Source: Brachyhypopomus gauderio
Lineage: Eukaryota > Chordata > Actinopteri > Gymnotiformes > Hypopomidae
Reading direction: 5' to 3'
DNA length: 64,000 bases
NCBI RefSeq assembly: GCF_052324685.1
Contig: NC_135211.1
Location: 8,854,914-8,918,913, forward strand
The notes beneath the pieces were generated by a model. It was not told the origin of the DNA. It did no database searches and worked only from the letters and a program-made list of their open reading frames with translations. This document shows positions 2,950 to 59,285 of this stretch, piece by piece (within the stretch, counting starts at the first letter, position 1; each line of letters opens with the position of its first letter). Position numbers and translations under genes: made by a program.

Positions 2950-5900
2950 ATGACTGATTCCTTGTCTTATAACTTAAGGTATGGGCCCTCAGTGAGATTT
3001 GTAAGCTGGAATGTCAAGGGTCTTAACAGTGCAGTTAAACGGTTAAGGGTATTTGCCCATTTGAAACAATTCAATGCAGATATTATTTTTTTTACAGGAG
3101 ACCCATCTTAGGAATAACGATCATTGTAGACTTAGATGTTCCTGGATAGACAGAGCATTTCACTCAGTATTTGACTCTAATACTAGAGGGGTGGCAATAA
3201 TGGCCAGAAGGGGAACTCAGCTTATAGAGGATAGGGTCATCTCAGACCCAAATGGCAGATTTCTTATTCTTCAAGGTTCTTTATTTAACACTCCAGTCTT
3301 ATTGGTTAATGTTTATGCACCTAATTTTGACAATCCAAATTTCATGAATAAATTATTTAGCTCCCTTCCTTCTTTGAATTCTCACTCCCTTATAATGGGT
3401 GGAGATTTTATTTGTACAATAGATCCAATATTAGATCATTCCAATCCCCGCACATCATCTCAATCTTCCATGTCCCAATCAGTTTATGATTTTATCAGAA
3501 GAAATCCTGTTATCGACCCTTGGAGATTTCGCAATCCTTCCATTAAAGAATATTCTTTTTATTCACATCCACATGAGTCTTATTCCCGTATTGACTATTT
3601 CTTTTTAGATAACACTCTAACTTCTAAAATCAGCTCAATTAACCATCACCCTATAATCATTTCAGACCACGCTCCTCTCACTTTGAGCATAGCTCTTCCT
3701 GGCCGCCCTATTTCTTTTCCACCTTGGAGATTTAATTCTTTATTACTGTCTGATAAAGCATTTGTCACATATATTCCCACGTCAATAGAAGACTTTATAG
3801 CTTTAAATAAGAATGATACTGTCTCATTTTCTTTGCTTTGGGAAACTCATACTTGCGTGGCCAGACAATTTCTTATTCAGCTTATTCCAAAAGAGTGCAG
3901 AAATCTAGGTTACAACACTTGCTGTCAAAGATTGTAGATTTGGATAAACTTAATGCTGCTAGCCCATCACCCACATTATTGAAACAGCGTCTGGAGTTAC
4001 AGACCGAATTTGATATTCTTACAACCACAGAGGCTGAACAGTTGCTACTGTGCACACGTAGTAATTATTACGAACATGTTGACAAGTCCTCTAGACTTTT
4101 GGCTCATCAGCTTAAGAGACAGGCTGCGTCTCGTATGATTCCTCAAATAAAGGATTCATCCAGGCGCGTTTACACGGATCCACTATCAATAAATTCCATA
4201 TTTAAGTCTTTTTACTCCAATTTATATGATACTGAATACATTGCAGATGCTATGGCAGATTTTCTAGATGGTCTGGTGTTTCCTATTGCTGAACCAGAGA
4301 CAGCATCTGACCTAGACTCACCATTACGTCTAGAGGAAATTAAAATAGCAAATAAAATTATGCGAACCAATAAGGCACCCGGTCCTGATGGACCCATTCG
4401 AATTTTTTAAAACATTCATTGATAAATTAGCACCACTTCTTTTGGAAGTCTATAATGAATCTTTATTATCTGGTTCGTTACCCCCAACCATGACCCAGGC
4501 TTCTATATCTCTTCTTTTGAAGAAGGCTGGGGACCCGACTAATTGTGCCTCATATAGACCCCTGTCTCTTTTAAATGCTGATGTTAAGATTTTGGCTAAG
4601 GTTCTGGGACTGCGTTTGGAGAATGTTCTTCCGAGTATAATTTCTCCGGATCAAAATGGATTCATCAAAGGGCGTCAGCTCTCTTTCAATGTTCGCACAC
4701 TTTTAGATGTAATTTTTGCAAAGCAGTTTTCCTTTACACCAGAAGTCATGATCTCTCTGGATGCAGAAAAGGCATTTGATCGTGTTGAATGGAGTTATTT
4801 GTTTGCAGTTTTACAGAGATTTGGTCTTGGAAACACATTTATATCATGAATCAGATTACTGTACTTTTCTCCAAGAGCCAGTGTTTACACCAATGTTGTA
4901 CAGTCTGATTATTTTTCTCTGTATCGTGGAACTAGACAGGGGTGTCCTTTATCTGCCTTGTTATTTGCTCTTGCTATCGAACCTCGATCTATTGCATTGA
5001 AGTCTCTTACTTCCTTTCAGGGAATTTCTTGATCAGTCATTGAGCTTAAATTACCATTGTATGCCGATGACTTATTGTTATACGTTACAGATCCAGCTTG
5101 TAGTCTTCCTTCTGTTTTATCCCTTTTACAGAGATTTGGCACCTTTTCAGGATACAAAGTGAATGTACAGAAGAGTGAGTGTTATCCAGTAAATTCAGTT
5201 GCACTTTCACTGAAACAGTCAGATATTCCTTTTAAATTTGCTGCTGCAGGGTTTAGATATCTGGGTATTCACATTTCTCGCACCCTGACATCCCTCTGAC
5301 AATAATTTTGCTCCACTAATGCAAAAGCTTAAATTGGACTTACAAAAATGGAGATCACTGTCATTATCTTTAATAGCCAGAATTAATATTATTAAGATGA
5401 ATGTTTTACTCAGGTTCCTTTTCCTGTTCCAAAACATCCCATTGATGCTACCCAAGAAATTATTTAAGTCTCTTGATCAAAGTGTTGCTGACTTTATATG
5501 GGATGGGAAGTCCCCAAGAATGAGCTTCTCTATTTTACAGAGATTTAGGTCGGCCGGTGGGCTAGCTCTCCCCAATTTCTTATTCTATTACTGGTCTGCT
5601 CATATACAAAAGACACTTTACTGGCTTCATACACCAGATTTACAGTGGTGCAGACTAGAAGTTCATTCTTGTTCCCCATTCTCCGCTCTTGCATTGCTCA
5701 CATCTCCTTTGCCTCACAAACTTTCGAGGTGTTCTGGTAATCCATTGGTTCTGTCTAGTTTGTGTATATGGCATCAGTTTAGAGGCCATTTCAAATTTGC
5801 ATCTCCATCCACTAAAATGCCTATATTGAGTAATCATTTGTTTCCTCCAGCATTGTGTGACAATGCTTTTAAATTATGGCATGACACAGGTTTAAGATCT

Positions 5901-6672
5901 GTACATGACATGTTTGAGGATGGCACATTTCGAAGCTTTTTACAGCTATTGAACGAGTTCCACTTGTCGTCTTCACACGTTTCGTTATTTTCAAGTGAGG
6001 CACTTTGTATCTGCCAATTTTCCAAATTACCCAAATTTGCCTGTTGACCAGCCTTGGGATGATTTGTTGATTATGGCCCCTTTCCCGAAAGTCACTAATT
6101 TCAAAGATTTACAAGTATCTAATGGAATGGAATATTAAATCTCCCTCTAAAGTTAAGAGTACCTGGGAAGAGGAATTGGGTTTGGTATTTTCTGAGGGCT
6201 GGTGGGAGAAGGCAGTCAACAAAATACAATCAAGTTCACTTTGTGCTAGACTCCAGCTCATACAATTTAAGGTCTTACATAGGATACACAGATCCAAATT
6301 TCATCTTTCTAAATTTTACCCAAATGCAATTGATAATCGGTGTGGTAGATGCTCTGGCTCACAGTGCCATTTGAGTCATATGTTTTTTCTTTGTCCCTCA
6401 CTAAACAAATTTTGGACAGATTATTTCAATATAGTTTCCAAGGTTTTGGGTGTCATCTCCCCGTGCCCTTCTGTTGCAATATTTGGTTGTATGGCTGAAC
6501 CTTGCACACTGACTCGTGTTCAGGAGGATGTTTTGACCTTTACCTTATTATTGGCTAGACGTCGAATTTTATTGTAGTGGAAATCCTCTACACCACCTGT
6601 GGTCTCCCTTTGGCTCCACGACGTTATGTATTTTTTGAAATTAGAAAAGATTAAATATACGTTAAAAGGTAA
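2950..6672 (+). pseudogene. LINE ORF2 remnant: APE endonuclease plus reverse transcriptase
   Basis: Read across at least five frameshifts. The endonuclease part shows SWNVKGLNSAVKR, then GGDF, SRIDYFF and ISDHAPL (about 2998-3690). The reverse transcriptase shows NKAPGPDG (4369-4392), SYRPLSLLNADVKILAKV, DQNGFIKGRQ, SLDAEKAFDRVEW (4755-4793), RQGCPLS (about 4935) and the catalytic block YADDLLLY (5060-5083). A C-terminal Cys/His motif, CGRCSGSQCHLSHMFFLC, is at about 6342-6395. The frame stays readable to LHDVMYFLKLEKIKYTLKG just before an LTR fragment. In GGDF the next residue is Ile where family members usually have Asn, one more sign of decay. Family known: nicks DNA and copies its RNA at the nick. 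Confidence 0.85.
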
Positions 6673-6906
6673 CACGATATCACGCAGACACGAAACTTTA
6701 GACAAAGACGAGAACAAGACACTGCGCGAACGCACATTAAATAGGTGATTAACACAAACCCTCGTGATCTCGAGACAAGGCACAGGTGAGACTACGAACA
6801 CGCTCACAGACAACCCACACCCACGGAAGTACATACATGGACATAACGACACGCAGACAACGTAGCGGCAAGCCCACAGGGAAGGGTCCGGAGCTGTCAC
6901 CGTAAC
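6672..6906 (-). repeat. Partial solo LTR, minus orientation
   Basis: The stretch around ACTGCGCGAACGCACATTAAATA and the following CACAGGTGAG closely matches, in reverse, the LTRs of the complete element at 53531-55657. The right end (GTAACA) corresponds to the LTR 5' end. The left part is missing or too diverged. It sits near the end of LINE ORF2, before the LINE tail, so it entered after the LINE. Confidence 0.6.
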
Positions 6907-27804: not shown

Positions 27805-28142
27805 TGTGACGTTGGCGTCGGAGAGACGGACGAGACACGAGTCCGATGGTTTACGCACAATCACTTCTTTAATTCAACAGATATTGCGCAATCAGCGCAC
27901 GATAAACATGAACACAGTACACAACGTGCAGACTTAAGACAACGACGAGCACAGGACACTGCGCGAGCGCACATTAAATAGACAAACCACATTAGCCCCA
28001 CGTGATTACGAGACGATTCACAGGTGAGACACATTATTCACACGACATAGCCATCACCACAGAGTTCCACTGACGCAGACAAAGCACGTGGACTACGTAT
28101 ACACACGCCCAAAGGGGAGGGGCCGGGGTCCTCAACGTGACA
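27805..28142 (-). mobile_element. Solo LTR of the 53.5-kb element family, duplication CTATG
   Basis: Minus orientation; ends TGTGACGTTGG...CAACGTGACA. CTATG flanks both sides exactly (27800-27804, 28143-28147). Long stretches match the LTRs at 53531 and 55319 in reverse, for instance ACTGCGCGAGCGCACATTAA and the run AATAGACAAACCACAT. It is therefore a relative of that element and shows that the family has moved elsewhere. Confidence 0.9.
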
Positions 28143-33000: not shown

Positions 33001-34320
33001 TTTTTTAAACATTGGTCACATTGTTCTTTCTGTGAGCATTAAAATGTTAAGGCATGTAACGGGTTTTGAACAAAGGAGAATAGCAGAGTAGAGCATGTAC
33101 AGATGCATCACATTTCAGAAGAATATTGCTTCTGAGAAGGAAAATAAAGCACAAACATCTCAACATTGATACAGTCCTATAATCATTTGCAAACAGTAAG
33201 AGAGTTTTGATTAGTAAAGAGTACTGCCTCAGACATTCAGCACCACAGAAAAAGCACTCGGGATTGGGCAAAGAGCAGTTCAGTGAGCAAATTTGCACTG
33301 AATTCAGTGCCCCATGAGGAGAAAGAGCTTTGTGCATGTGTCCCCCCCAAAACAAAAAAAAACACTGTGGATGTTCTGTGCTCGAGCATAAACTCAAGAA
33401 TGCTGGGGTTGTGATCTGAAACAAAGTAAAGACCTAGTTTACAAGAATACTTCTTGGGGAATTTGGTTTTTATTTAATAAAACTTAAAAAGATTTACCAA
33501 CACTAAAATCTGTAGAAAAGAATTCCAGAATACGGATGAGACACCATGATGTGTATAATTGACAGCTTTTAGAACGTTTTCACTGAAATTCTTAAACTAA
33601 TTATAATTTAGTTTTAGAATCAATTTAGCAAGATCGTCTAAGAACTTTAGAAAAAACATCCTCAAAATATCTCACTATTTTGTTGAGTTCATTTGAAGCT
33701 ATTCATTTATTAAATGTAATTGTAAATGTAATTGTAAATGCAATTGTATGAGACAAAATCATAACCTAATTCTCCCCATTTAAAATACAATACATTAAAT
33801 TACTGCTTAATGACTTCTTTCACAGAATATCAAAGTAGGCTAAAGTAATGAGGAAAAAGGCTTGTTTTTTTTCTTGCAAAAACATAACAAAAAAGTGTCT
33901 CCTCTATGGAAAACAGAACATAAGTGCAGGGATATAATAATGGAATGCAACTGAAAAACACATAGGTCCTCATCAAAGGTTGCATCAACATGATGTGTCA
34001 AAATATAACCCTAGAGACATTCCAATCAATACAGTGTGTTGCACAGCAAATACAGAGTCTAAATTACTACCGTGCAGAAACTGACCCAGAATCAGTTCAG
34101 AAATTCAATTCCAATCTCAACCTGAACTCAGCAAAGACAATGATGAATAATATCTATGGAGAAGGCATTCACATCATTAGAATTTCTGGAATATATTTCA
34201 AACCAAACAGGTTACTCCAAAACACATCTGATAACAACACATAGACTACATCCAACCTCCAAAGTGATGAGAGAATGACCACAAATAGTCCATTGCAAGT
34301 CAATTTGAAAAGGGGGCCTT
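33000..34320 (-). other. Region downstream of the arfgap1 stop codon, includes its 3' UTR
   Basis: The 3' UTR of arfgap1 must begin at 34320 and run leftward. Several minus-strand AATAAA signals (TTTATT on plus, for example near 33471 and 33707) could end the transcript; I cannot choose between them. Confidence 0.4.
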
Positions 34321-37300
34321 CTACCAGTCAGCATTATCCCACAAATCCTCCTCAGGTTTAGTAGGGCTTTTCTTTGGTTTCTTCTCTCCAGCACTTTCCC
34401 AGTTGTTGTCCCAGGCTTCCCAGCTATCTCCAGTGCTATGTTTGTTATTGGACTGGGCCTCAGATCCCCAGTTATCCCAGCTGTCTGAGCTCTTCTTTTC
34501 AGCAGAGTTGTCAGCAATGGTCCAGCTGTCACTACTGGGGGACTTGGGTTTACTGCCAAAGGTGTCCCAGAAGTTCTGACCGGCTCCGTCACTCTCTTGA
34601 TAACCAGTAGAAGAATCCATGTTCTGATAGCCTTCACCACCTACAGACCTAGTGGCATGCATCAAAACATTAACTTTTTTCATTTGAATCATGACATTAC
34701 TAAAGACTAAAGGTCTTTAATATTCATAATCTTGTGTAGTCCAGTCCTTGTGAACAATGTGTGTTAAGTTACCCATCAGCAGGGTCCCCTGGTTTGCCAG
34801 AAAAGAATGAGCTCATGTCCTTCCAGCCTTTTGTTCCAGCATCCTGCAGCTAGACACAGCAAAATATTTCAGTACATTTGTGATTAAATAAAGTCATAGA
34901 AATACAGCATACTGCATAAGCTCCTAAGATAGATGGCAAAGCAATTAGAGATTATGACTGTATGTAAATCTCACACATCAAAATGTACAATTAAAAATGC
35001 AAATGCATCAGTGCTGTTTAGATCAATCTGAGAAAACATTCTCAAAATTGTTATTCAAACTACCACTAACCTATATTATATACATGATATACTCACCATT
35101 ATAATAACAATAGCAGCACAAAGAAATGGACAAAAAATGCAAATTAACTTTCAGATGAATTACTGTATACCCAAAACCTCCTCCTCTGAGAGAACACCTA
35201 GGCAATAAATAACTGTTTACTTTGCACGTCACTTTGCAAGCAGAGTTAGGCCTGTATCTTCTGATTTGCTACTACCTGTAAACCTTGTGTCTCAGAGGAA
35301 GTCAGCAGTGGGTTAGTGCGGTGACAGCTTATGTCATACCTTAGAGGCAAACCCTGTGATGCCCACTGCCATTTCATCAAATAACTTTCCATCTTTTACC
35401 TAAATAAGTCAAATCAATGTTAATACTGAATTTCAGCAGTAGTCTGGACAACAGAATATGCAGACAAGTTATACATGTTCAGTAAGCTTGTAAAGGTTTT
35501 GGATCACAACCTTGAATCTGGACTCCACAATTTCTATACAATATATATGTGAAGTGTTTTTGTTTTACCTAGTGAGAAAGAGTTCATCGGTGCACTCTCA
35601 CATGACTTTATACATAGAAAATCTAACAGTTCAGTCAAACAGTTTATTCTTCAAACTATAAATAAAGCTGCACTCTTGAGTTTTACAAATCTAAAGAAAT
35701 CTCAGTTTAAAATCTCAAAAGCCATTTTAAAAATAACAGAGGACAATACACTGAGGAACATATGTTTATATTGCGCTTGGCTGAAAATAACTAATAACTT
35801 ATGACTAATATGAGTGACTAATGACTAATAATAATAGCTTATTTCAAAATCACACATTTAGAATACTATTATTTCAGAGAAATAGTACAGACTGCTCCAC
35901 TACCTGGCCATACAGTAGTTACTATCACCATGGTAGCATTTCTATTTTCCATTTATAAATTCCAAAAAGTCATAACCTTTTACCTATGTAATAAAATAAA
36001 ATCACAATTTAATAGAAAAATACTACTTTAGTAACTAAAGTCTAGACCATATTCAATCACCATTGGAACATTTCTGCTATCCTGACCCATTCTGAAACCC
36101 TCAAAACTGGTTACTGGTTTAAAATACATTACAAAGACTAGTGCGACTCTGCATTAAAGAAAAAGGAGCTCTGACACCAAACTATGGCTCAAAACCAAAG
36201 CAAGAACCAAACCATTACACACCTACTGTTCAAAAAAAGCAACCTCATAATAAAAAGCTATTTTGTAGTCTGATAAACATTACAACATTTGATTACATTT
36301 CCACATATCTTTAGTCAAAAAATTTGCAATTACTTCTGATCAAGTTCACCAAAGCAGTACTAAAATATATGAATAATGTTTTGTAACTGTTTGTGTGTAT
36401 TGTTTCATACACCATTTTAATGGTAAAGTTTGTTTAAACAATTACATTATCTCTACATTTCCTTTTCTGCTCTTATGTAAATGCAAGACTCTAAAGTAAA
36501 AATAAACTCTAAACAAAACATCCTTCTGGCCAACAAGCATTAGGTTGCCTAGGTTGATGTACAACCCACCACCAAAGAAGCACTGACTGCAAACATTAGT
36601 TACCTTTTCTTGAGTTGGTTTGACTACATTTTCATTTAATGTTTGGCCTAACTCAGCAGCCTAGTTGAGAGTAGAAAAGGAAGAATATGTATGAAGATAA
36701 TATGAACAGACATAAAATGAAAAATTTAATCAAGGAGATTTGACAATATGTACTCAATTTCTTTGTGCACACCAAAGACAGGAGACAACGAGTCATTTAG
36801 CAATTGTGGTATGAATGGATACACCAAAACAAAAATCTTTACCTGTGTTCAACAGAGTATAAACTTTGATTACAAACATAAAGGGCATAAATATATATAC
36901 CCAAAGCCCTTAATGCACATTCTGATAGGTAATTCCTTGTCAAATCATTAGAGCTCAAAGCCATCAATCACAATATTAATAAGGTACAAAGCCGTGCTAA
37001 TGAGACTGTTTAAATAAATATTTCAGCCTTTTTCAACCTAATCTCCATCTACTGCAGTAGTTGAGGAAAAATTTGATATAATTGGGGAAAATATAAATGG
37101 TAAAATAAATAATAAAAAAAAACTATTTGTTATCACTTTGCTAGAACAATAACAGGGCAAAATGGATTCATGTAATTGGGGTATAATGTCTATTGTTGTG
37201 TCTCATATTGCCAGATGTTTCAGACAAAGTGAAGCAAAGAAGATGCTCCCTCATCATCTCCTACCACATACAATAAGATGTTATCATATTTTCTTGACTT

Positions 37301-40300: not shown

Positions 40301-43300
40301 CAAGAAACACAAACAAATAATTAATGCTACTGGAATCACAGACAAACAAAGTTAATATGATTTAGCCTCACAGTACAACTGATGATAAGACTGGCAGCCT
40401 ATAGAATAAGTCCACCTAATATACAGCTGTGGTCAAAATGTTAAAGACCACTTCAATTTTTTTTATTAAATCATCACTACATGGCAGCCATGCCATTCCA
40501 GTCTGTTGAATTCCAAAACAGGTAGACCTACAACTAAGGTACAGATTAGGTTATCACCTTAATTAAATCTTATTTATAAAAGAAAAGTATATAAAACACC
40601 ACAACGGTCATCACCATCCTCCTACATTAGGCCAAATATAATGGCAAAAACCTAACACCTAAAATGCAGATTTTTTTTTTCTATTGAGTATTCCAAAAGA
40701 GTGTAACAGAAACGTATTGAGTGAGGAAAAGTAGGGTTCAATCCTGGCTTTACACTCTTGGATAGTGAGTAACAGGGAGCTTTCATTCTTATTTTCAGTT
40801 CAGCAATTCTTAAGAAAGTTGTCAAACGGCAGACCTTGGCGATAACAAAACTACAGACTGGCAGAGGGTGAAAATGACTCTCCACTGTCTGGGATGACTG
40901 CCAACTCACTCGAACGTCACTCACCAATTAAAGAACGGCATCAAGTGACCCACAAAAAGAATAGGAAATGGCAGTTGGGGTAAACCATACAAGAATGTAT
41001 GGTCAAAACGGGCTCCTAGGTGCAGGGCTGAAATCGTGCAAAGCGACAAAAAAAGGCCCTCATAAATGAGAAGCAAACAAGAGCCACTCTTTGCAAAAGG
41101 CCAAAAGGATTGGAGGCCATAGATGCCTGAATTGACCTAGTCATCTCTGACGAATTTTCAGCTTGACCTTCTTCTTCTTCTTTCGGCAATTCCCATTTAG
41201 GGGTCGCCACAGCGGATCAAACTCCTCCATCTGGCCCTGTCCCGAGTGTCCTCCACTGACACACCAACCACTCTCATATCCTCTACCACTGCATACATAA
41301 ACCTCCTCTTAGGTCTACCTTTCCTCCTCTTGCCTGGAAGTTCCATCCTCAAGACCCTCCTACCAATATACCTCTCCTCCCTCCTCTGTACATGTCCAAA
41401 CCATCTCAATCTTGCTTCTCTAACTTTATCTCCAAAACATGCTACATGTGCTGATCCTCTAATTAACTCATTTCTGATCTTATCCTTCCTCGTCACTCCA
41501 AATGAGAATCTCAACATCTTCATCTCAGACACCTCCATCTCCCTCACCTGTCTCTTTGTCAGTCCCACCGTCTCCAGTCCATACAACATAGCAGGTCTCA
41601 CTACTGTCCTATAAATCTTTCCTTTCATTCTAGCCGACACCCTTCTATCACAGATCACCCCAGACACTTTATGACATCCACACCACCCTACCTGCACTCA
41701 CTTCTTTACCTCTCTTTCACTTCCTCCATTACTCTGTACCCTCGGCCCTAAGTAGGTAAACTCGTCAACCTTCAATTTTCAGCTTGACCGAACACTATAT
41801 TTTTATGACTATCCTAAATACAATTTTTGGGCCCCGGACATTTGACAATAATCAACAGTATATTTGAGATTAAGACATTGAATGTTTCAATGTCCACCAA
41901 ATTATATTTGCCATAACAGGTTTATTAACAGTGTGCTTTAGCACTAATATTAATAAAACATACTTAATTACTAAAAAAAAGTTGCAATACAGTATCTGCT
42001 AGGTCTGTACCCTCCTCTTAATACAAAGAAAATAAATAATAGACGCACATATAACCATAGACAGACATACAATTTAAGAACAACAGCAAGTGGTATCAGC
42101 TGAGTTAGTGCTCTTATAGAAAAGTAACAACTTTGTATTCGTGAACATGAACCTTATTTGTATATTTAGATGACCACCGAGCTACCACTTTAGCTCACTA
42201 GCTAAATGTACTGATAGAATTTTAGTACTCTTCACCGGCTTGGTATATGACTTGGTCAAATGAGTCATGACTGCTTCTCTGCTACCTTTAGTTTTAGAGG
42301 AGAAACATTTGATGGCCAAGCCAAAACCACCCCCCCCCAAGAAAAATATCACTACCTATCGAATGAATGAATGAATATCCAAATATAATAATATTTGGGT
42401 CTATCCCTAAATAGTTTATTATTTGGAAATAGACAAAAATGTGTGTAGGTTATAGTAAAAAATAAAAACAGAGATACTGAATTTTGCAGTGGTCTATTTT
42501 TTTTCCAGAGCTGTAGACTGTGACACATAATGCAACTTGATCTGCTTATGTGCATGTTGAAGGATCCTATAGATACCATGAATACAAATTATCAAACGCA
42601 CCTTTGGTAAGAGTTGACATCGTCACTGAGCCAGTCTTCAAACACAGTGTCAGAGTGTGAAGAATTCTGTCCCAGACCAGCTGTGCTTCTGCAACAACAT
42701 TTTTCCACATGATGGTAAATGTATATATAAGATGTATGCAGCTCTGAAATGTATGCAGCTTTGATGCACACTTTAATATTTCAACATCTTAGACTAATCA
42801 TAGTAAAAAACATATGCAGAAACCCACAAGTGTGAAACTATAGTACTTCATAAAAGGCCAAAGTACCTAGTAAACTTAGATTTCATTTCTTAAATAGTTT
42901 ATGTAGATAATGTTAGTGCATTACAATGAGATACATTTCATTTACATGTGCTGTAGCATAAAATCAGTGCTGAGACACTACACTGGGTAAACTATAAATG
43001 TAATGATTGACTTGCCGATGAGCAGTAGAGAGTCCAGTCTTTGGCTGAGGAGGAGCCCAGTCTTTAGCAGGCGAGTTTTCAATAGACCATTCTTTCCCCT
43101 CTGCTAGAGTAGCAACCTAAGCACAGAATCCACACCTAAATGTCGCATAATGCTTAGAAATCTTTTACATACGAGGAGGTTTTGTGTGTCCGAGTACATT
43201 TACACAAGTACCTACCTTGTCCCTAAAAAGAGCAGCAGCCCTGCTGTTGTATTTTTCTTGTAAGGTCCAGTTGGAATCATAGTCATCCTGGAGCTCCAAA

Positions 43301-43867
43301 AATAACTGAAATTTCTCATTTCCCCCAACCTTCATCTTATCTAGTTCTATATCCTTCCATTTGTCCATTGAAACAGACCTCACAAAGCTATAAAAGAAAT
43401 TGGGTGGGTGTAAGAAAGGCTCAAACTGTAAAAATGAAAAATATAAATATACAAACATCCCACAAACACACATGTATATAAAGCACTGAAGAACTTGCAT
43501 GGCTGATGAAGGACTTTTGTCTGAAAACATAGTTCTTTGTTCTTTCATAGAGCCTTGTGTACTATGCTGGCTAAGACACAAAGTGGTAAGTGTGCAGTAA
43601 ATAAACTTACCTTAGGTGGACCCCAAGGCCCCTATGTTTTCCAGAGCATTCCAGACAAATCCATATCCCATAGGTCACACTCACCCATTGGGGATTGAAT
43701 GCACCACATTCAAAACAAACCTAAAACGGCAGAAATCATGGTTTGACAGTAGTACTCACCTGGCACCTGTGTGAAATTCTAATAGAAACAAACTAATTAA
43801 TACACACATTATTTCCATTATGGGTCCGAACTTCTTTCAGAACACGTCTTGTCCTAGGGCTGGCCAT
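34321..43867 (-). CDS. arfgap1: ADP-ribosylation factor GTPase-activating protein 1
   Basis: Activates GTP hydrolysis on Arf1 at the Golgi, driving COPI coat release. Coding exons (minus): 43867-43808, 43720-43611, 43387-43216, 43116-43016, 42688-42602, 40027-39925, 39813-39757, 39527-39495, 36660-36604, 35399-35340, 34849-34773, 34648-34321; phases agree throughout and give 414 aa (human protein about 406). Start [14 protein letters not shown] is the family start. The ArfGAP zinc finger has C22, C25, C42 and C45 (C-x2-C-x16-C-x2-C) and the arginine finger R50. Residues 201-230 ([16 protein letters not shown]) form the ALPS membrane-curvature sensor; a second ALPS-like part is near 266-300. 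The tail has repeated SSDSW/WDNW motifs and ends LWDNADW, the COPI-binding aromatic type. The exon ending at 43016 uses a GC donor. Introns contain transposons. Well-conserved ends suggest a working gene. Confidence 0.95.
37735..37752. repeat. (G)18 run in an arfgap1 intron
   Basis: Eighteen consecutive G; a potential G-quadruplex and a likely sequencing or assembly error point. Confidence 0.9.
40103..40425. repeat. Possible small inverted-repeat element
   Basis: CATTAGGTACACCTGCT near the left and AAGTCCACCTAATATA near the right are roughly inverted. ATTAGGTACACCT is a common fish repeat start. Ends imperfect, no duplication seen. Confidence 0.35.
41169..41773 (-). mobile_element. 5'-truncated RTE-type LINE with 16-bp target duplication
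   Basis: Flanked by AATTTTCAGCTTGACC on both sides (41153-41168 and 41774-41789), an exact 16-base duplication. Minus-strand text [18 protein letters not shown], then [23 protein letters not shown] and RGRPKRR-like text is the C-terminal end of an RTE-clade reverse transcriptase. It ends in a (GAA)n tail on the minus strand next to the left duplication, as RTE elements do. Only the last 600 bases were copied, the usual 5' truncation. Confidence 0.9.
41197..41697 (-). pseudogene. RTE LINE reverse transcriptase, C-terminal fragment
   Basis: Open frame of 166 codons from 41697, lacking the catalytic YADD block that lies upstream in full elements. Ends [11 protein letters not shown] followed by a stop, typical for the family. 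No independent function is expected. The frame is still intact, which suggests a fairly recent insertion. Confidence 0.85.

Positions 43868-48534: not shown

Positions 48535-48581
<47 letters not shown>
48531..48581. repeat. (CA)n microsatellite
   Basis: About 25 CA units with one early interruption, directly abutting the Tc1 left end. Confidence 0.9.
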
Positions 48582-48583
<2 letters not shown>

Positions 48584-49441
48584 CCGTTCAAAAGTGCACT
48601 TTTTTCGTACCATTCGTACCGTACGATCAAGCTGCTCCCACAACAGCTCAATGGGGTTGAGATCTGGTGCCTGCGCTGGCCACTCCATTACCGATAAAAC
48701 ACCAGCTGCCTGCTTCTTCTCTAAATAGTTTGTGCATAATTTGGAGGTGTGCTTTGGGTCATTGTCCTGTTGCAGGATGAAATTGGCTCCAATCAAGCGC
48801 TGTCCACAGGGTACGGCATGGTGTTGCAAAATGGAGTGATAGCCTTCCTTATTCAAAATCCCTTTTACCTTGTTCAAATCTCCCACTTTACCAGGACCAA
48901 AGCAACCCCAGACCATCACATTACCTCCACCATGTTTGACAGATGGTGTCAGGCACTCTTCCAGCATCTTTTCAGTTGTTCTGCGTCTCACAAATGTTCG
49001 TCTGTGTGATCCAAACACCTCAAACTTTGATTCACCTGTCCATAACACTTTTTTCCAATCTTCCTCTGTCCAATGTCTGTGTTCTTTTGCCCATATTAAT
49101 CTTTTTCTTTTATTAGCCAGATATGGCTTTTTCTTTGCCACTCTGCCTTGAAGGCCAGCATCCCGGAGTCGCCTCTTCACTGTAGACATTGACACTGGCG
49201 TTTTGCGGATACTATTTAATGAAGCTGCCAGTTGCTCAGTTGTGCAGCGGGGCCTTCCACTTCTCCTTCTACTCTGGTTAGAGCCTGTCTGTGCTCTCCT
49301 CTGAAGGGAGTAGTACACACCATTGTAGGAAATCTTCAGTTTCTTGGCAATGTCTCGCATGGAATAGACTTCATTTCTCAGAACAAGAATAGAATGTCGA
49401 GTTTCAATTGAAAGGCCATTTTGTGAGTTTAATCGAACCAA
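48581..49441 (-). pseudogene. Tc1 transposase, long ORF with lost catalytic aspartate
   Basis: 286 codons, family length about 340. N-terminal paired-like helix-turn-helix part (STVKRRLRDAGLQGRVA; GRPRCTT) is shortened between the two DNA-binding halves. The catalytic core has WTGESKFEVFG where active relatives have Asp at the Gly position (first D of DD34E). The second Asp is present in LQQDNDPKHTS and the Glu in APDLNPIELLWE. The C-terminus ends early and oddly (DRTVRMVRKKC) by joining into the terminal repeat. The frame is open, so the loss is recent, but the missing Asp and truncation mean it should not cut DNA. Confidence 0.85.
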
Positions 49442-49836
49442 AAATTGTAATGCTCCAGATTCTCAACTAGCTCAAAGGAAGGTCAGTTTTATAGCTTCTC
49501 TAATCAGCAAAACTGTTTTCAGCTGTGCTAACCTACTTGCACAAGGATTTTTAAGGGTTTTCTAAATATCCAATAGCCTCCCTACAGAGTTAGCAAACAC
49601 AATGTACCATTAGAACACTGGAGTGATGGTTGTTGGAAATGGGTCTCCATACATCTATGTAGATATTGCATTAAAAACCAGATGTTTACAGCTAGAATAG
49701 TCATTTACCACATTAATAATGTATAGAGTGTATTTTTGATGCATTTAATCTTTAATGTTAGCTAAATTGAAAAAAAAAACTGCTTTTCTTTCAAAAATAA
49801 GAACATTTCTAAGTGACCCCAAACTTTTGAACGGTA

Positions 49837-53023: not shown

Positions 53024-55946
53024 TCAGACGTGGTTGGCATAAGCCTCATTACTGTCATGCTTCTTCCTCCTAATATGTTCCATGTCCACTGATGCATACA
53101 GGTCTGACATAATTGAACATGTGTCCTTCTCCTGTGTGTTGTCTTCTTGTTCAGCAGTGGCCTCGGAAACTGCCTTCATTTCTGAATACTGGATTTGTGA
53201 AACAGGAGAACTCCGTCCTGAAGCTGATTTAGGAACTTTCAGGGTCAAATTGGCATAACATTCTCGTCCACTGGAGGGCGTCTAAAGAAAGACAGACAAC
53301 CATAACTAAATGCTAGCACAGATCTATGGAGACAACTTGTCTTCATTTGATTATCTCCTTTTTATCTGTGATGCATCATGCATTTGCAACACATGTTTTG
53401 CTGTAAACCACAAAACAAAGAATACTACTTATTCTAACAATATGTACAGTGTAGGATTGTGTTCCATTCATGGAGGTAAATCTGTTGCAAAACTTGAGAA
53501 CGTGAAGGACATGATTTAGGAACTTGTAAATGTCATGTTGAGGACCCCGTCCCCTCCCTTTTGGGCGTGTATCTACGTCGTCTATGTCTACTCGTCTGCG
53601 TCTGTGGATCTCCGTGGGTGTGGTTATGTCTTGTGACAATCCGTCTCACCTGTGGCTCATCTCGTAATCACGCGGGGCTTATGTGGTTTGTCTATTTAAT
53701 GTGCCCTCGCGCAGTGTCCTGTGCTCGTCGTTGTCTAAAGTTTACTCGTTGCTGTGTCACTTCAGTGTTCTACGTGCACTATACGCGCTATCTGTGTATG
53801 AGAATAAAAGTGACGTCTGTCGCAGCCAAGGATCCCGTGTCTCGTCCTTCGCGATACCCTGAACGTCACAGAACGACGAGCCTTCTGAGACACCCAAGAC
53901 AATGCCAGGCTACACCACCCAGCCGAAGAAGAGCAAGCGCTTCAGCAAACGGCACCACCGTACGTCTTCCTCCCCCCAGCACCGCGAAGCCACTCCGACG
54001 CTGGAGCAGCTGGAATCAGACCCGGTGTGTTCTTACATGCTGTGCGCTGCTCGGGAAACCTCTGCCCCCGAGAAGGCAGCTTACTACCGCGAGGAGGCGG
54101 TGCGGGCGTGGCAGGAGATGCATCCCTCGTCTTCCCGGGAACTCTCGCCCCTGCGGGTGGGCATCCACGAGCTGGGCGCCACCGCATCAACCCCAGAGAG
54201 CGAGTTTGAGGAGGCGGATTCCAAGGGGGAGGGTGAGGAAGACCATCCGCCGCTCGTGTGTCCCTCTCCCGCCGTAGGCTACGGTGAGGTGGAAGAGGAA
54301 GATGAGGAAGAGGACTACCTGCCATCGGTATGCTCTGCTCCCACCGTAGACTACGGTGAAGAGGAGGAGGAAGACGAGGAAGAGGACTACCCTCCGTCAG
54401 TGTGCTCCGCCCCCACCGTAGACTATGGTGAGGAGGAGGAGGAAGACGAGGAGGAGAATTGCCCTCCGACTGTGTGTTCGGCTCCCACTGTATACTACGG
54501 TGGGGGCGAAGAAGACCATCCTCCGTCCGTGTGCTCGGGTGTCTCCGAGTGCACGGACAGCGAGATGTGTACAGAAGATGAGGGTAGTCCACCCCCCTCT
54601 GAGCGTGCTGCCAGGTCTATCAAGGGGAGGAACAGCCCGGGGGTGAGTGCTCTCTCCTACCGCTCCGAGGAGAGTACGATGGACTGCTCCCATGAAGGGA
54701 GTCCAGCCACTTCTATGAGCTGGAGCCGGGGCCGTGAGGGGGAAGAGGAGATGGAAGCCCACACTGTCCGCTCCGGAGCGCGGTCGAGAGGCGAAGGGGG
54801 AGGGTCCTACGGCCCACCGAGAGGGGAGATCGGCTGCACTGCACCAGGCGCGTCCGCCAGTCGCGCTGCACCAGGCGCGTCCGCCAGTCGCGCTGCACCC
54901 AGCGGAGGATTCGCGGCAAAGGCTGGAGGAGGACCGTCCCCTGCAACACCTGCACCTCCCGGTCTCTCTCCCCTGATAGCTATCCTCCTGGCGCGTAGCT
55001 TGGCGCCTGTTTTGTGTTTGTCTGTCCCAGTGTTTGTGAGTCTTCCCATATGTGTGCCTAACCCCTTTTTCCCTTTCGTGCCTCTATGTGTTATAGTACC
55101 AGTCTGTGTGTCTGTGTCCGTCCCGTTGAATGTGTCTAACGTCTTTTCCCCGGTCTTCCCAGGGAGGGTGTTCTAGGCAGTTCGTGGCGGGTGCTTCGCC
55201 GAGGGTGGTCACCTCCCAGACGCAGGACTGAGCGTGTCGGATCCGCCCATCGACGTGGGTTCGGAGCACTCGGTCCTGTTGGCACCCCGGGACGGATAGT
55301 GCCCTTGGTAGGGGCGTCTGTCACGTTGAGGACCCGTCCCCTCCCTTTTGGGCGTGTGTCTACGTCGTCTACGTCTTCTCGTCCGCGTCTGTGGATCTCC
55401 GTCGGTGTGGTTGTGTCTTGTAATAATCCGTCTCACCTGTGGCTCGTCTCGTAATCACGCGGGGCTTATGTGGTTTGTCTATTTAATGTGCGCTCGCGCA
55501 GTGTCCTGTGCTCGTCGTTGTCTAAAGTTTACTCGTTGCTGTGTCAGTTCAGTGTTCTACGTGCGCTATACGCGCTATCTGTGTATGAGAATAAAAGTGA
55601 CGTCTGTCGCAGCCAAGGATCCCGTGTCTCGTCCTTCGCGCCACCCCGAACGTCACAGTAAAATACATCTGTAGCCTACATGTATTTTACATTTTTTGAG
55701 AACTTGTAAACTAAAAGTTGCACAAAAGTTGAAATTTGTGGTTCAAATATTTTTAAACAAAAAACAAAAACCGTAAGATCAGACAATGGTAAGAAAATAT
55801 GAATGCAAAATACAATTAAGGATGTCTTGAGTTAAAATAAATGAAAGCATATGCAGTCGTACCTCTGAAGGACATTCTTCCTCTTTATTATATCCTGTGT
55901 ACAGCATAAAAAAACAACAGCTTTTATTTTCTTTTTTCTTATTATG

Positions 55947-56011
<65 letters not shown>

Positions 56012-56371
56012 TCTCTCTCTGTAACAGGCTTACTGGTCTGTCTGTAGGTGATGTTGCCATAGATAGGGTTGTCCTCCATATTCCGTTTCAGACTTGTGAT
56101 AAAGAAGAACACACAATGAACAACAATATGTTAACGAAACTGATTATGCATCCAGCAGCGGAGCCAGCAAGATGAAGCATGATGGTGACATGCAAGGTCC
56201 TTTGGTATTTAGATTATATTTTACAAATAACATTTATGTAAAAACACTAGTTACAGCAGAACCTGAATGGCTTAATGCATTGTAACTGGTGAAGCAATAA
56301 CTGACCTGTTTTATTGTTTTTATAAATGCTTTATAAATGTTAATTTATAATATAATATAAATTATAATTAT

Positions 56372-56469
<98 letters not shown>

Positions 56470-59285
56470 GTATAATTATTGTTGGATATACTGAACACTA
56501 AATATATTTAAATATTGAAATATTGATTTTGAACTGCAATTGAATTAACAAAGATCATTTTACTAATGACTGCTAGATTTATCAATAAAAGCAACCAAAG
56601 AACTGAGTGATCAGTGTGTGCTGTAGTCTTTATGTTTGAACACATACCTCTTCCTGAAACAAGGAAGAAAAGCCTTCCCTGTAGCTGAAGAGAAATAAAA
56701 GAATTAATAGAATTTCTTAAAGAAAATCTGCATTATATGAATAAAAATCAACTGACATGAAATTAAACTAACAAAAACTACAATTCACCCTTCTTGACCT
56801 TGCTTACAACAACCTCACTAAACAAAACAGGATATCAGTAGCCCTGATTTGCATTTAAATCTTTTTTAACCTTGTTACTGTTGGCATTTATGTTGAGCAG
56901 AGGTGGAAAGAGTACTGAAAAATTGTAATTGAGTAAAAGTATCATTACTTTGCCTAAAATCTACTCAGAGTAAAAGTAAAATTACACATCTCAAATTTAC
57001 TCGAGTAAAAGTACAAAATTACTTCATTTAAAATGTAATTTGAGTAAAAGTTACTTAGTTACTTTCAGTTATTTAATGCATGGATGAATCAAATTCAGCA
57101 CAAGTTGTTTTAATCGATTTCAAAGCGTATTTAAGTGCACATCCACACTTGCAAAAAGATCAGCTGGGCTCAGGAACATACTTCCTCACAGCACAAGGAC
57201 AGTCACAACCTGTACCATAAAGTGCAAACAATTTTCAGTCCAATTGTCCGACGGACAACACTATGATAAGAATAAAGAAATTTAAATTACAAATTATTCA
57301 AAAAACAAAATGCACACAAAATTAAGTGCCCACAAGATGCCACAAATCAAACTAAAATGCAACAGGATTCCACTACTCACAATAAAATGCCCACAGGATC
57401 CCACATCAAAAATTAAAAAATGCTCATAGGATCCCACAATTTAAAAGTAAGTGCTCACAGGACCCAACTATTCAAAATACAGTGCCCACCGGATCCCACT
57501 AATCACAATAAAATGCCCATAGATTGCCACAACTCAAAATAAAATATAAAATGACCACAGGATCCGACATCTCAAAATAAAACAAAATGCGCACAGGATT
57601 ACACTATTTAAAACGCTCACAGGATCCAACTATTCAAAATACAGTGCCCAACAGAACCTGATAGATAGAAGATTTAAAGGTAGAACAATCTCATCCTTTT
57701 GGGAAAAAAAAAGTGCACCAGATTACGACCTGATTATGAGACAATGGAAAGGGCACACGCAAGGCAAGGCCACGTAATTGGCCTTCAGTTCTGGGACTCA
57801 GAAGTTTAAATTTCTGCCTGCATTTAATTTTTCACCATCAGTATTTTTTTACTCAGTAATGTGAGGGCGTTCAAATGTAGTGAAGTAAAACTACTTGGGT
57901 CAAAATGTACTCAAGTAAAAGTAAAAATTACATATTTCAAAAACTACTCAGAAAATTATAAATTACTCATAAAAAGTACTCAATTACAGTAATGTGAGTA
58001 AATGTAATTAGTTACTTTCCACCCCTGATGTTGAGATAGTGTTTCTAACAGTCATTCTTCCATGTCAATGAATGGATATTTTTATATAAGAACACTCGCA
58101 AACTTTATAATAAACACCATTTATGTTGTTTAAACACTTTTGTGCATTTGTTGCCATGCTTAAATTATCTGTCTCTGGTCAATTTATGAACACATAGCTG
58201 CTGGTAACTAAATATTATTGGGTAGTGAACCACTCCACCAGAGCAACACTAATGACCATGTCACCACCATGCCATGTCATCAGCTGCCCTGGGATAAGAT
58301 ATTGACCCCTTATGAATTGTACATGGCATGTCCCGGGACATGTACAAAGCCCAGTTTCCCAAAAGCATTTTGGTGTTAAGATCATCTTAAATGGAAGACA
58401 GAGTGTTTCATGTAATACTTGCTTTATCCCTTAAAGAATATATTTGTGTTACAATGCTTTTTGGGAAATGCTGCTCAGATTGGTGTATTTCAAAACTGCA
58501 GCAAAACATATTTGAAATATATAAACAAATAAAGCAACTGCACCTAATATAATTGTTATAGAGATTGATATTGCTGTAGTTCCAGGAGGGTTTTCCTGTT
58601 TCTGCTTTGTCAAGCAATAAGATATCAGCTACAAGTATACAATAAAGTCACAACTGAAAGACTACAGAATAACAACAGCAGACTCTTAGCAATCAAGCAC
58701 CATTCTGAGTTGTGTGCTAATGCTGAGTACAAAGTAAACATAATTACAGAATGGATTTTTATAAAGAAAATGTTTTAAAGCTTGAAAACTATTAAATGAG
58801 TGGAAATCTATGAGGATAAAAGAGAGAACAGAAAAGTAAGAAGGTGATTCATCTACTTTGATGAATTTGTGAATCTGGTTCATTGCAAGCATGAATGAAA
58901 TAACGAGAAAAGTCAGAACTGGCTAAAAATAAAATTTTGATTAATATTATTATGGCTTACCGGTCCAGTGTTTTTGGATACAGCAGAGAATATTCCAACA
59001 CAGAGAAAAGATGAGCATTCCACTGACCACTCCAAAGACAATACAGAGTTCTTTGGAACCAGAGAAAACCCCAGTAATGTCTGTAAAATTACATAAAAAT
59101 CTAAATTACAGCTAGGTTGAATCATTTATGTTACCATTTGTAAAACATAAAAATTTCACATTTCTAAATGGAGAGTATGTGTGACTTTTGTGATAAGCAA
59201 TTTAGTTATGCAGAGTGTCAGACTATAAGGCAAAGACATCCATGAATGACTTACCAGTTTGGGCTGTGCTACAATTGTTCACCAT
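53024..59285 (-). CDS. sit1: Signaling threshold-regulating transmembrane adaptor 1 (SIT1-like)
   Basis: Exons (minus): 59285-59255, 59080-58961, 56684-56648, 56092-56034, 55894-55863, 53281-53024. Phases match at every junction and give 178 aa (human SIT1 196). Short extracellular N-terminus with sequon NCS at 4-6, next to Cys5, as in the human NCT. No signal peptide. Transmembrane segment about 23-45 (CIVFGVVSGMLIFSLCW), ending in CC. The tail carries YGNI (74), YANL (102), IQYSEM (123-128), DLYASV (153-158) and EAYANHV, in the same order and similar surroundings as human YGNL, YTSL, VKYSEV, LYASV and YANS. Family known: disulfide-linked dimer in lymphocytes that binds SHP2, Grb2 and Csk and damps receptor signalling. 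Odd: the ITIM-like motif has Met at +3. Introns carry a hAT element and an LTR element. Motif order is the main evidence; overall identity is low. Confidence 0.8.
53531..53870 (+). repeat. 5' LTR
   Basis: TGTCATG...CGTCACA, 340 bp, with AATAAA in GAGAATAAAAGTGACG near 53800. By eye about 16-17 differences from the 3' LTR (about 95 percent identical), so the insertion is not new. Confidence 0.9.
53902..55176 (+). CDS. Acidic repeat protein of the LTR element, unknown function
   Basis: 424 codons filling most of the internal region; the start lies 31 bases after the 5' LTR, first ATG of the internal RNA. N-terminus is basic (KKSKRFSKRHHR), then a folded-looking part (residues about 33-75, LEQLESDPVCSYMLCAARE). 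Next come about five repeats of 20-25 residues with the core PSVCSAPTVDYG and runs such as EEEEEDEEED (about 110-215). A 10-residue duplication (GASASRAAP) is at about 313-335. The end is proline/hydrophobic with a long valine/leucine-rich stretch (about 358-420) that could be membrane-seeking. The frame is intact and GC-rich. No similarity that I recognise, neither Gag nor enzyme; a highly changed Gag or a captured host sequence are possible. Confidence 0.6.
   Translation: MPGYTTQPKKSKRFSKRHHRTSSSPQHREATPTLEQLESDPVCSYMLCAARETSAPEKAAYYREEAVRAWQEMHPSSSRELSPLRVGIHELGATASTPESEFEEADSKGEGEEDHPPLVCPSPAVGYGEVEEEDEEEDYLPSVCSAPTVDYGEEEEEDEEEDYPPSVCSAPTVDYGEEEEEDEEENCPPTVCSAPTVYYGGGEEDHPPSVCSGVSECTDSEMCTEDEGSPPPSERAARSIKGRNSPGVSALSYRSEESTMDCSHEGSPATSMSWSRGREGEEEMEAHTVRSGARSRGEGGGSYGPPRGEIGCTAPGASASRAAPGASASRAAPSGGFAAKAGGGPSPATPAPPGLSPLIAILLARSLAPVLCLSVPVFVSLPICVPNPFFPFVPLCVIVPVCVSVSVPLNVSNVFSPVFPGRVF
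55319..55657 (+). repeat. 3' LTR
   Basis: TGTCACGTTGAGG...CGAACGTCACA, 339 bp, same signals as the 5' LTR; followed by the GTAAA duplication. Confidence 0.9.
55949..56010. repeat. (CA)n microsatellite in sit1 intron
   Basis: About 30 CA units lying between the 32-bp exon (55863-55894) and the 59-bp exon (56034-56092), close to the donor at 56033. Confidence 0.9.
56383..56460. repeat. (TA)n microsatellite in sit1 intron
   Basis: About 38 TA units, preceded by ACACACACAC. Confidence 0.9.
56896..58027. mobile_element. hAT-type non-autonomous element with exact duplication ATGTTGAG
   Basis: Left end CAGAGGTGGAAAGAGTACT and right end AGTTACTTTCCACCCCTG are inverted. ATGTTGAG flanks exactly (56888-56895, 58028-58035). 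Both arms contain many GAGTAAAAGTA-type repeats, the pattern of a common fish hAT MITE. No transposase. It lies in a sit1 intron. Confidence 0.85.
57300..57660. repeat. Degenerate minisatellite (GCCCACAGGATCCCAC units)
   Basis: About nine imperfect units of 30-45 bp, each with a variant of AAATGCCCACAGGATCCCAC and an AAATA-like spacer. Lies in the middle of the hAT-type element. Confidence 0.7.

Follow-up and report, generated by a model that had tools for sequence, protein, structure and literature searches.

A predicted self-priming, non-autonomous LTR element family of Brachyhypopomus gauderio with a single constrained ORF of no recognisable relation to Gag or Pol

The common view of non-autonomous LTR elements is that they are gene-less or encode Gag only. 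An element with a single long gene of a different kind is located at positions 53531-55657 of the window, i.e. the whole 64,000-nt stretch of DNA analysed here (Brachyhypopomus gauderio contig NC_135211.1, positions 8,854,914 to 8,918,913). The initial annotation described it as a complete LTR-mediated insertion with LTRs about 5 percent diverged, no gag-pol and one intact 424-codon ORF of unfamiliar kind, and each of these points was borne out. The 5' LTR (340 nt, 53531-53870, + strand) and the 3' LTR (339 nt, 55319-55657, +) have TG...CA ends and the insertion is flanked by the 5-bp target-site duplication GTAAA on both its 5' side (53526-53530) and its 3' side (55658-55662). Alignment of the two LTRs gave 323 matches, 16 substitutions (11 transitions and 5 transversions) and one gap, corresponding to a K2P distance of 0.049. 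An AATAAA motif is present in each LTR (53803-53808 and 55590-55595, both +) and the 3' LTR is preceded by a purine-rich stretch, GGTAGGGGCGTC (55307-55318, +), which was picked by eye as a weak polypurine-tract candidate. The 1448-nt interior has a GC content of 62% and one long sense ORF, and no match to gag or pol was found in it by ORF scanning and Pfam profiles.

The ORF (MPGY...PGRVF) extends from 53902 to 55176 on the + strand, stop codon included. When the interior was shuffled 2000 times with dinucleotide composition preserved, the longest ATG ORF had a median length of 103 aa and never exceeded 371 aa, and 424 was reached in none of the shuffles. The basic start, acidic repeats and hydrophobic end noted at first sight were recovered: residues 1-30 have a pI of 11.6, residues 113-235 include 42 D/E vs 1 K/R and residues 346-424 have a GRAVY value of 1.37. 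The repeats, which had been counted as five, do exist, but as four in-register 72-nt units (54226-54513, +) of which the first and last are diverged, followed by a partial fifth, and not as five equal copies. An AlphaFold2 model built from 11 sequences (mean pLDDT 54.5, pTM 0.30) contained a confident three-helix domain at codons 31-77 (53992-54132, +; helices 34-39, 41-52 and 56-73; block pLDDT 95-98 for residues 31-70 and 74 for residues 71-80) and, after a low-confidence helix, a hydrophobic beta hairpin at codons 372-408 (55015-55125, +; block pLDDT 80-93, weaker if folded alone), with most of the remainder at low confidence. The model has no capsid-sized domain, a result that at this depth of 11 sequences does not exclude one. 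Searches of Pfam, PDB and fold collections with the protein gave no significant match, and the Gag-model search suggested by the initial annotation gave none in 10 family members with a profile library that detects Gag in two autonomous elements of the same genome (L099 and L101, described below).

How such an element could start cDNA synthesis is suggested by the sequence next to its 5' LTR. One base past the LTR lies a primer-binding site, AACGACGAGC (53872-53881, +), which is the exact complement of GCTCGTCGTT inside the LTR (53723-53732, +), the predicted self-primer and putative RNA 5' end; the 3' LTR has a copy of GCTCGTCGTT at 55510-55519 (+). Of 20000 shuffled LTRs, 172 gave a 10-nt match no more than two bases from the LTR end. 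Among 35 readable loci of the family, 24 had the exact 10-nt complement, in each case one base away from the LTR end, and 11 lacked it. The primer starts 30 nt from the TATA-like box TATTTAA (53693-53699, +), and this spacing was the same in 22/22 measured loci. When RNA folding was started at position 53721 the primer helix closed the leader (z -2.1), and when it was started at 53715 the helix was not formed.

The site and the primer also vary together. Loci with the site AAAGACGAGC carried the primer GCTCGTCTTT in 18 of 20 sampled cases and the ordinary primer in none (no primer was found in the other 2), and loci with the site AACGACAAGC carried the primer GCTTGTCGTT in 11 of 20, the other nine having the ordinary primer (4), another variant (4) or none that was found (1). 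Loci of the AACGACAAGC kind that lack the matching primer are expected if part of these sites arose by CpG decay of the first type. Paired changes of site and primer were also found in L027 and L029, in which both LTRs were read. Given the complementarity between primer and site and three co-occurring site/primer variants, self-priming of the Tf1/sushi type is indicated, and at the level of sequence the covariation is the strongest evidence for it. The family is thus almost certainly a self-priming and non-autonomous one, with an RNA 5' end that is placed by prediction, and it offers, for a vertebrate, evidence of self-priming from natural covariation. According to the accessible part of PMC3601003, hairpin priming is said to be used by some chromoviruses, and Table 3 of that paper gives TGTYANR and CNTNACA as the LTR-end motifs of Sushi. 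The ends of the window LTRs (TGTCATG / TGTCACG and CGTCACA) fit these motifs, but they fit the rGmr1 motifs as well, and the LTR ends therefore do not decide between Sushi and rGmr1.

The size of the family was estimated in the B. gauderio assembly (796.5 Mb in 840 contigs). The string GTCACAGAACGACGAGC, which joins the LTR end to the first type of primer site, had 404 + 377 = 781 exact matches and its reversed control 0; the second-type junction ACAGAAAGACGAGCC had 298 + 277 = 575 (control 0) and the third-type junction ACAGAACGACAAGCC had 54 + 45 = 99 (control 1). The first and second types together represent more than 1300 exact primer-site junctions of one family in one fish genome. Searches with the LTR (best 40 scored of 4550 candidates) and with the ORF (best 99 scored of 8748 candidates) gave access to individual copies, and no internal stop was present in 26 of the 30 best ORF loci. 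Among 50 ORF-bearing loci (L009-L058), an LTR pair was found in 39 and a target duplication matching at 5/5 positions in 34, one of which (L011) consists of a run of T. The LTRs differed by K2P < 0.01 at 24 of these 50 loci, so that the LTRs of many copies are identical or nearly so, and seven loci combined zero LTR divergence with a 5/5 duplication; this set favours good copies because its loci were found through the ORF. Copies were also sampled through the primer site, for the first type by taking the first 24 sites listed on contig C1 and removing the window copy and three loci that the ORF search had already supplied, which left 20. The element ORF was found directly behind the primer site in 39 of 40 sampled copies, i.e. 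in 20/20 of the first type (within the 1.6 kb read) and 19/20 of the second type (within the 0.4 kb read). The exception was L081 (C1:837125-837695), a second-type site with what by eye is a Tc1-like insertion right behind it. A frame with the family start and end was kept in only 4 of the 20 first-type copies, the other 16 being broken. The window element is a copy of a large, recently active, non-autonomous family, on which a literature search found no paper. ORF copies spaced 1.8-2.0 kb apart in tandem were seen at C16:5125627/5127591, C12:16197044/16198853/16200689 and C2:13358235/13360069, and these apparently share LTRs, as if produced by LTR-LTR recombination.

The initial annotation took the open frame beside diverged LTRs as a hint of pressure to keep the protein. 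Such pressure is supported, but only weakly by that argument. Under neutrality, the probabilities of acquiring no stop (0.49) and no frameshift (0.20-0.73) give a chance of about 0.10 to 0.35 that the window ORF would have stayed open, and the open frame of this copy is therefore weak evidence for selection; the evidence comes from the family comparison and from the internal repeats of the ORF. Adjacent 72-nt units differ mostly at third codon positions (5, 6 and 13, 0, 1 and 9, and 3, 3 and 11 differences at the three codon positions). The pooled pN/pS of the repeats was 0.18 in frame and at least 1.39 in four of the five other frames; the mirror antisense frame gave 0.20, but it contains six stops within the repeats. 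In neutral simulations with five mutation schemes and 2000 runs, the low nonsynonymous counts observed for the three pairs were reached in 1-42, 0 and 0-2 runs. The comparison of full copies that the initial annotation had proposed gave the same picture, the ORF being kept with dN/dS below 1: for 41 intact copies (40 distinct) dN/dS was 0.39, 0.28, 0.29 and 0.32 in distance classes of rising order, in a set that was chosen for intact frames and whose pairs are not independent. Two findings that it had named as counter-evidence were not obtained. Within the 1.6 or 0.4 kb read behind the 40 sampled sites, 39 had the ORF and one the Tc1-like insertion, and the ORF copies, most of them broken, had not changed at neutral rates, since pN/pS against the nearest intact copy was 0.40 for the 4 intact and 0.51 for the 16 broken members of the primer-site sample.

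The measures of constraint do not all agree along the protein. For the largest distance class dN/dS was 0.37 in the N-terminus, 0.30 in the middle and 0.19 in the C-terminus, the latter having a value of 0.64 in the closest class. In a protein-level test of the annotated family, 22 of 105 N-terminal columns were invariant (10 sequences) vs 7.9 ± 2.6 under neutrality, a count reached in 0/500 simulations, and tryptophan and cysteine residues of the helical region were kept at 0.80 vs 0.50; no excess of conservative changes was found for the N-terminus as a whole (101/500 simulations). Conservative changes were in excess in the C-terminus (1/500 simulations), where no excess of invariant columns was found (240/500 simulations reached the observed count). 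Given that only 4 of the 20 copies are intact, selection acts during copying rather than on each insertion. Judged from these comparisons, copies decay after insertion and the copying lineage is constrained, and the protein has very probably been selected during the copying of the element. Intact copies thus show clear constraint on a protein that cannot be recognised as either Gag or Pol.

Candidate helpers were sought with the Pfam RT_RNaseH_2 profile. Many of the best 150 hits scored (of 3912 candidates) sit in open frames of 1290-1696 aa, and four of the loci (L099-L102) were examined with 2.6 kb of upstream sequence. Two of them, L099 (C76, 1549-aa frame) and L101 (C27, 1569-aa frame), show the LTR end CGTYACA followed by G, a 10-nt self-complementary site and C, and the site complements a primer 237 or 280 nt upstream, which is the geometry of the window element. 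By our own estimate, roughly 1 in 20 loci would be expected to give such a match by chance. A Ty3-type Gag lies behind the site in both (Retrotrans_gag E-values 1.4e-14 and 1.6e-11; Ty3_capsid 3.4e-11 and 1.8e-8), and on this alignment of parts the element ORF occupies the gag position of two Gypsy families of the same genome. No self-priming site was seen in the stretch read for L100 and L102. None of the four loci resembled the window LTR to a significant degree, and no helper was found whose LTR is like it. A tandem array of Gypsy polyprotein frames, each of 1343 aa and spaced about 5767 bases apart, was also observed at C9:3401494/3407261/3413027.

With respect to known element types, TRIM and LARD are defined by absent coding capacity; like the window family they are non-autonomous and helper-dependent, and they were rejected as a class for it because the family keeps a selected ORF (repeat comparison, dN/dS). 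The Tf1/sushi group of self-priming Ty3/Gypsy elements shares with the window element a primer site that adjoins the LTR and complements the predicted RNA 5' end, as well as 5-bp duplications, and the geometry is also that of the two autonomous families described above. In contrast to this group, the window element lacks gag, protease, reverse transcriptase and integrase and has one unrelated ORF instead, and an assignment to autonomous Ty3/Gypsy elements was rejected given the absence of gag and pol matches. Zebrafish BHIKHARI-1 and BHIKHARI-2 (crestin) are, in the available part of PMC10996621, likewise recently active fish LTR elements, each with one long ORF that had been of uncertain kind for a long time, and the plant TR-GAG elements are, in that of PMC8704663, likewise non-autonomous elements with LTRs and one ORF that are mobilised in trans. 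However, the ORF product is a Gag containing a capsid domain in BHIKHARI and GAG in TR-GAG, whereas the window ORF has no Gag-profile match and its low-confidence model shows no capsid domain; on the profile result, membership among Gag-only elements is improbable. The additional ORFs of Grande, RIRE2 and Retand are extra proteins of little-known role that are kept in most family copies (PMC7264820 and PMC11963269, in the parts available), but most of them follow pol and precede the 3' LTR in elements that also have gag-pol, whereas the window ORF is the sole gene and stands at the gag position. Gag-only elements and plant elements with additional ORFs are the closest precedents, and none of those described in the accessible portions of these sources is a family with a single non-Gag ORF.

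The window element is probably a copy of a helper-dependent, satellite-like, self-priming LTR family whose protein would aid its own RNA. The RNA would start near 53721 and its 5' end would fold back on the primer site to begin cDNA synthesis, while Gag, reverse transcriptase and integrase would be supplied in trans by autonomous self-priming Ty3/Gypsy elements. The ORF protein may act chiefly in cis, on its own coding RNA, an action we infer because selection is most easily maintained where copies encoding a good protein transpose more than neighbouring copies encoding a bad one; cis-acting help of this kind is slightly favoured in our judgement. The basic N-terminus might bind the element RNA, and the helical domain, acidic repeats and hydrophobic tail might bring it to the helper particle or to a host compartment; that the protein is specifically such an RNA-to-particle adaptor is a more doubtful proposition. 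The family could, tentatively and with odds just short of even, represent a class of vertebrate satellites that gave up gag and pol and evolved or captured a non-Gag protein of their own with which to win helper particles in cis, i.e. a selfish packaging or priming adaptor on self-priming Gypsy elements.

The ORF might instead be a very diverged or rebuilt Gag, in the manner of BHIKHARI or TR-GAG, and the protein a structural component of the particle. The single-ORF LTR elements known from fish and plants do encode Gag (PMC10996621 and PMC8704663, as far as their available text goes), the ORF stands where L099 and L101 have their Gag, and a basic N-terminus and a small predicted helical domain would suit such a protein. 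Nevertheless, the 10 family members have no match to profiles that find the Gag of L099 and L101, BLASTP against these two Gags gave no similarity and the model lacks a capsid-sized domain (which 11 sequences cannot exclude), so that we consider a Gag origin improbable. The same low probability is given to an action in trans, directed at helper expression or at silencing by the host, by which the protein would be kept since active subfamilies as a whole spread better. A protein that is disordered and acidic and whose basic start resembles a nuclear signal could act in this way, and accessory ORFs in plant elements are considered regulatory in the accessible text of PMC7264820, but products acting in trans serve broken copies too (16/20 are broken), which should weaken selection, and dN/dS is near 0.3 even among close copies. 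It is this argument, that broken copies would profit from a shared product too, that leads from selection on the protein of a non-autonomous element to action in cis.

It is very improbable that the ORF is a captured host gene, or one that serves the host, with selection acting through the host. Annotated gene models do carry the ORF, one of them (P0012) fused to an Ig-domain receptor-like protein, but no relative was found outside the family (at limited sensitivity), copies decay after insertion with 4/20 intact, and the family contains many young copies. Still less credible is an open frame that is a by-product of GC-rich sequence or of constraint at the RNA level, the protein being irrelevant. 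The interior is indeed GC-rich (62%) and has long chance frames on other frames, but 424 codons were reached in 0/2000 shuffles, the differences in the sense frame fall on third codon positions and dN/dS is 0.28-0.39.

A strategy based on a cis-acting helper protein is known from LINE-1 and, to our knowledge, not from LTR elements. With the family described here, the question whether such a protein can be encoded by an LTR satellite becomes open to test.

Protein searches found 13 relatives of the ORF, all of them B. gauderio 'uncharacterized protein' models, and none outside the family at the limited sensitivity of these searches. In the model P0012, the fusion of the receptor-like protein to the element ORF enters via the LTR end and primer site, which read SVTERRA, and it is possibly an exonisation or a model error. 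The annotated proteins P0002 and P0004 have their start upstream of that of the ORF and include VTERRA, fitting the LTR end and primer site, and they appear to be element copies, not host genes. Users of the B. gauderio annotation should be warned that its gene models include element ORFs, one of them joined to a receptor-like protein.

The window also contains a solo LTR of this family at 27805-28142 (-), with CATAG on both flanks and the full primer GCTCGTCGTT kept, and an old LTR fragment of the family at 6693-6906 (-), with a primer region, TCTCGTCTTT, that is nearest to the second primer type. The fragment adjoins what we take, by eye, to be a LINE-like ORF region at 3065-6577. Frames at 34212-34716 and 43165-43611 (-) have the look of host-gene exons, perhaps from an ARFGAP1-like gene, and a long open frame at 48581-49462 (-) resembles by eye a Tc1/mariner transposase. 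Downstream of the element, CA and TA microsatellites are located at 55949-56009 and 56371-56470.
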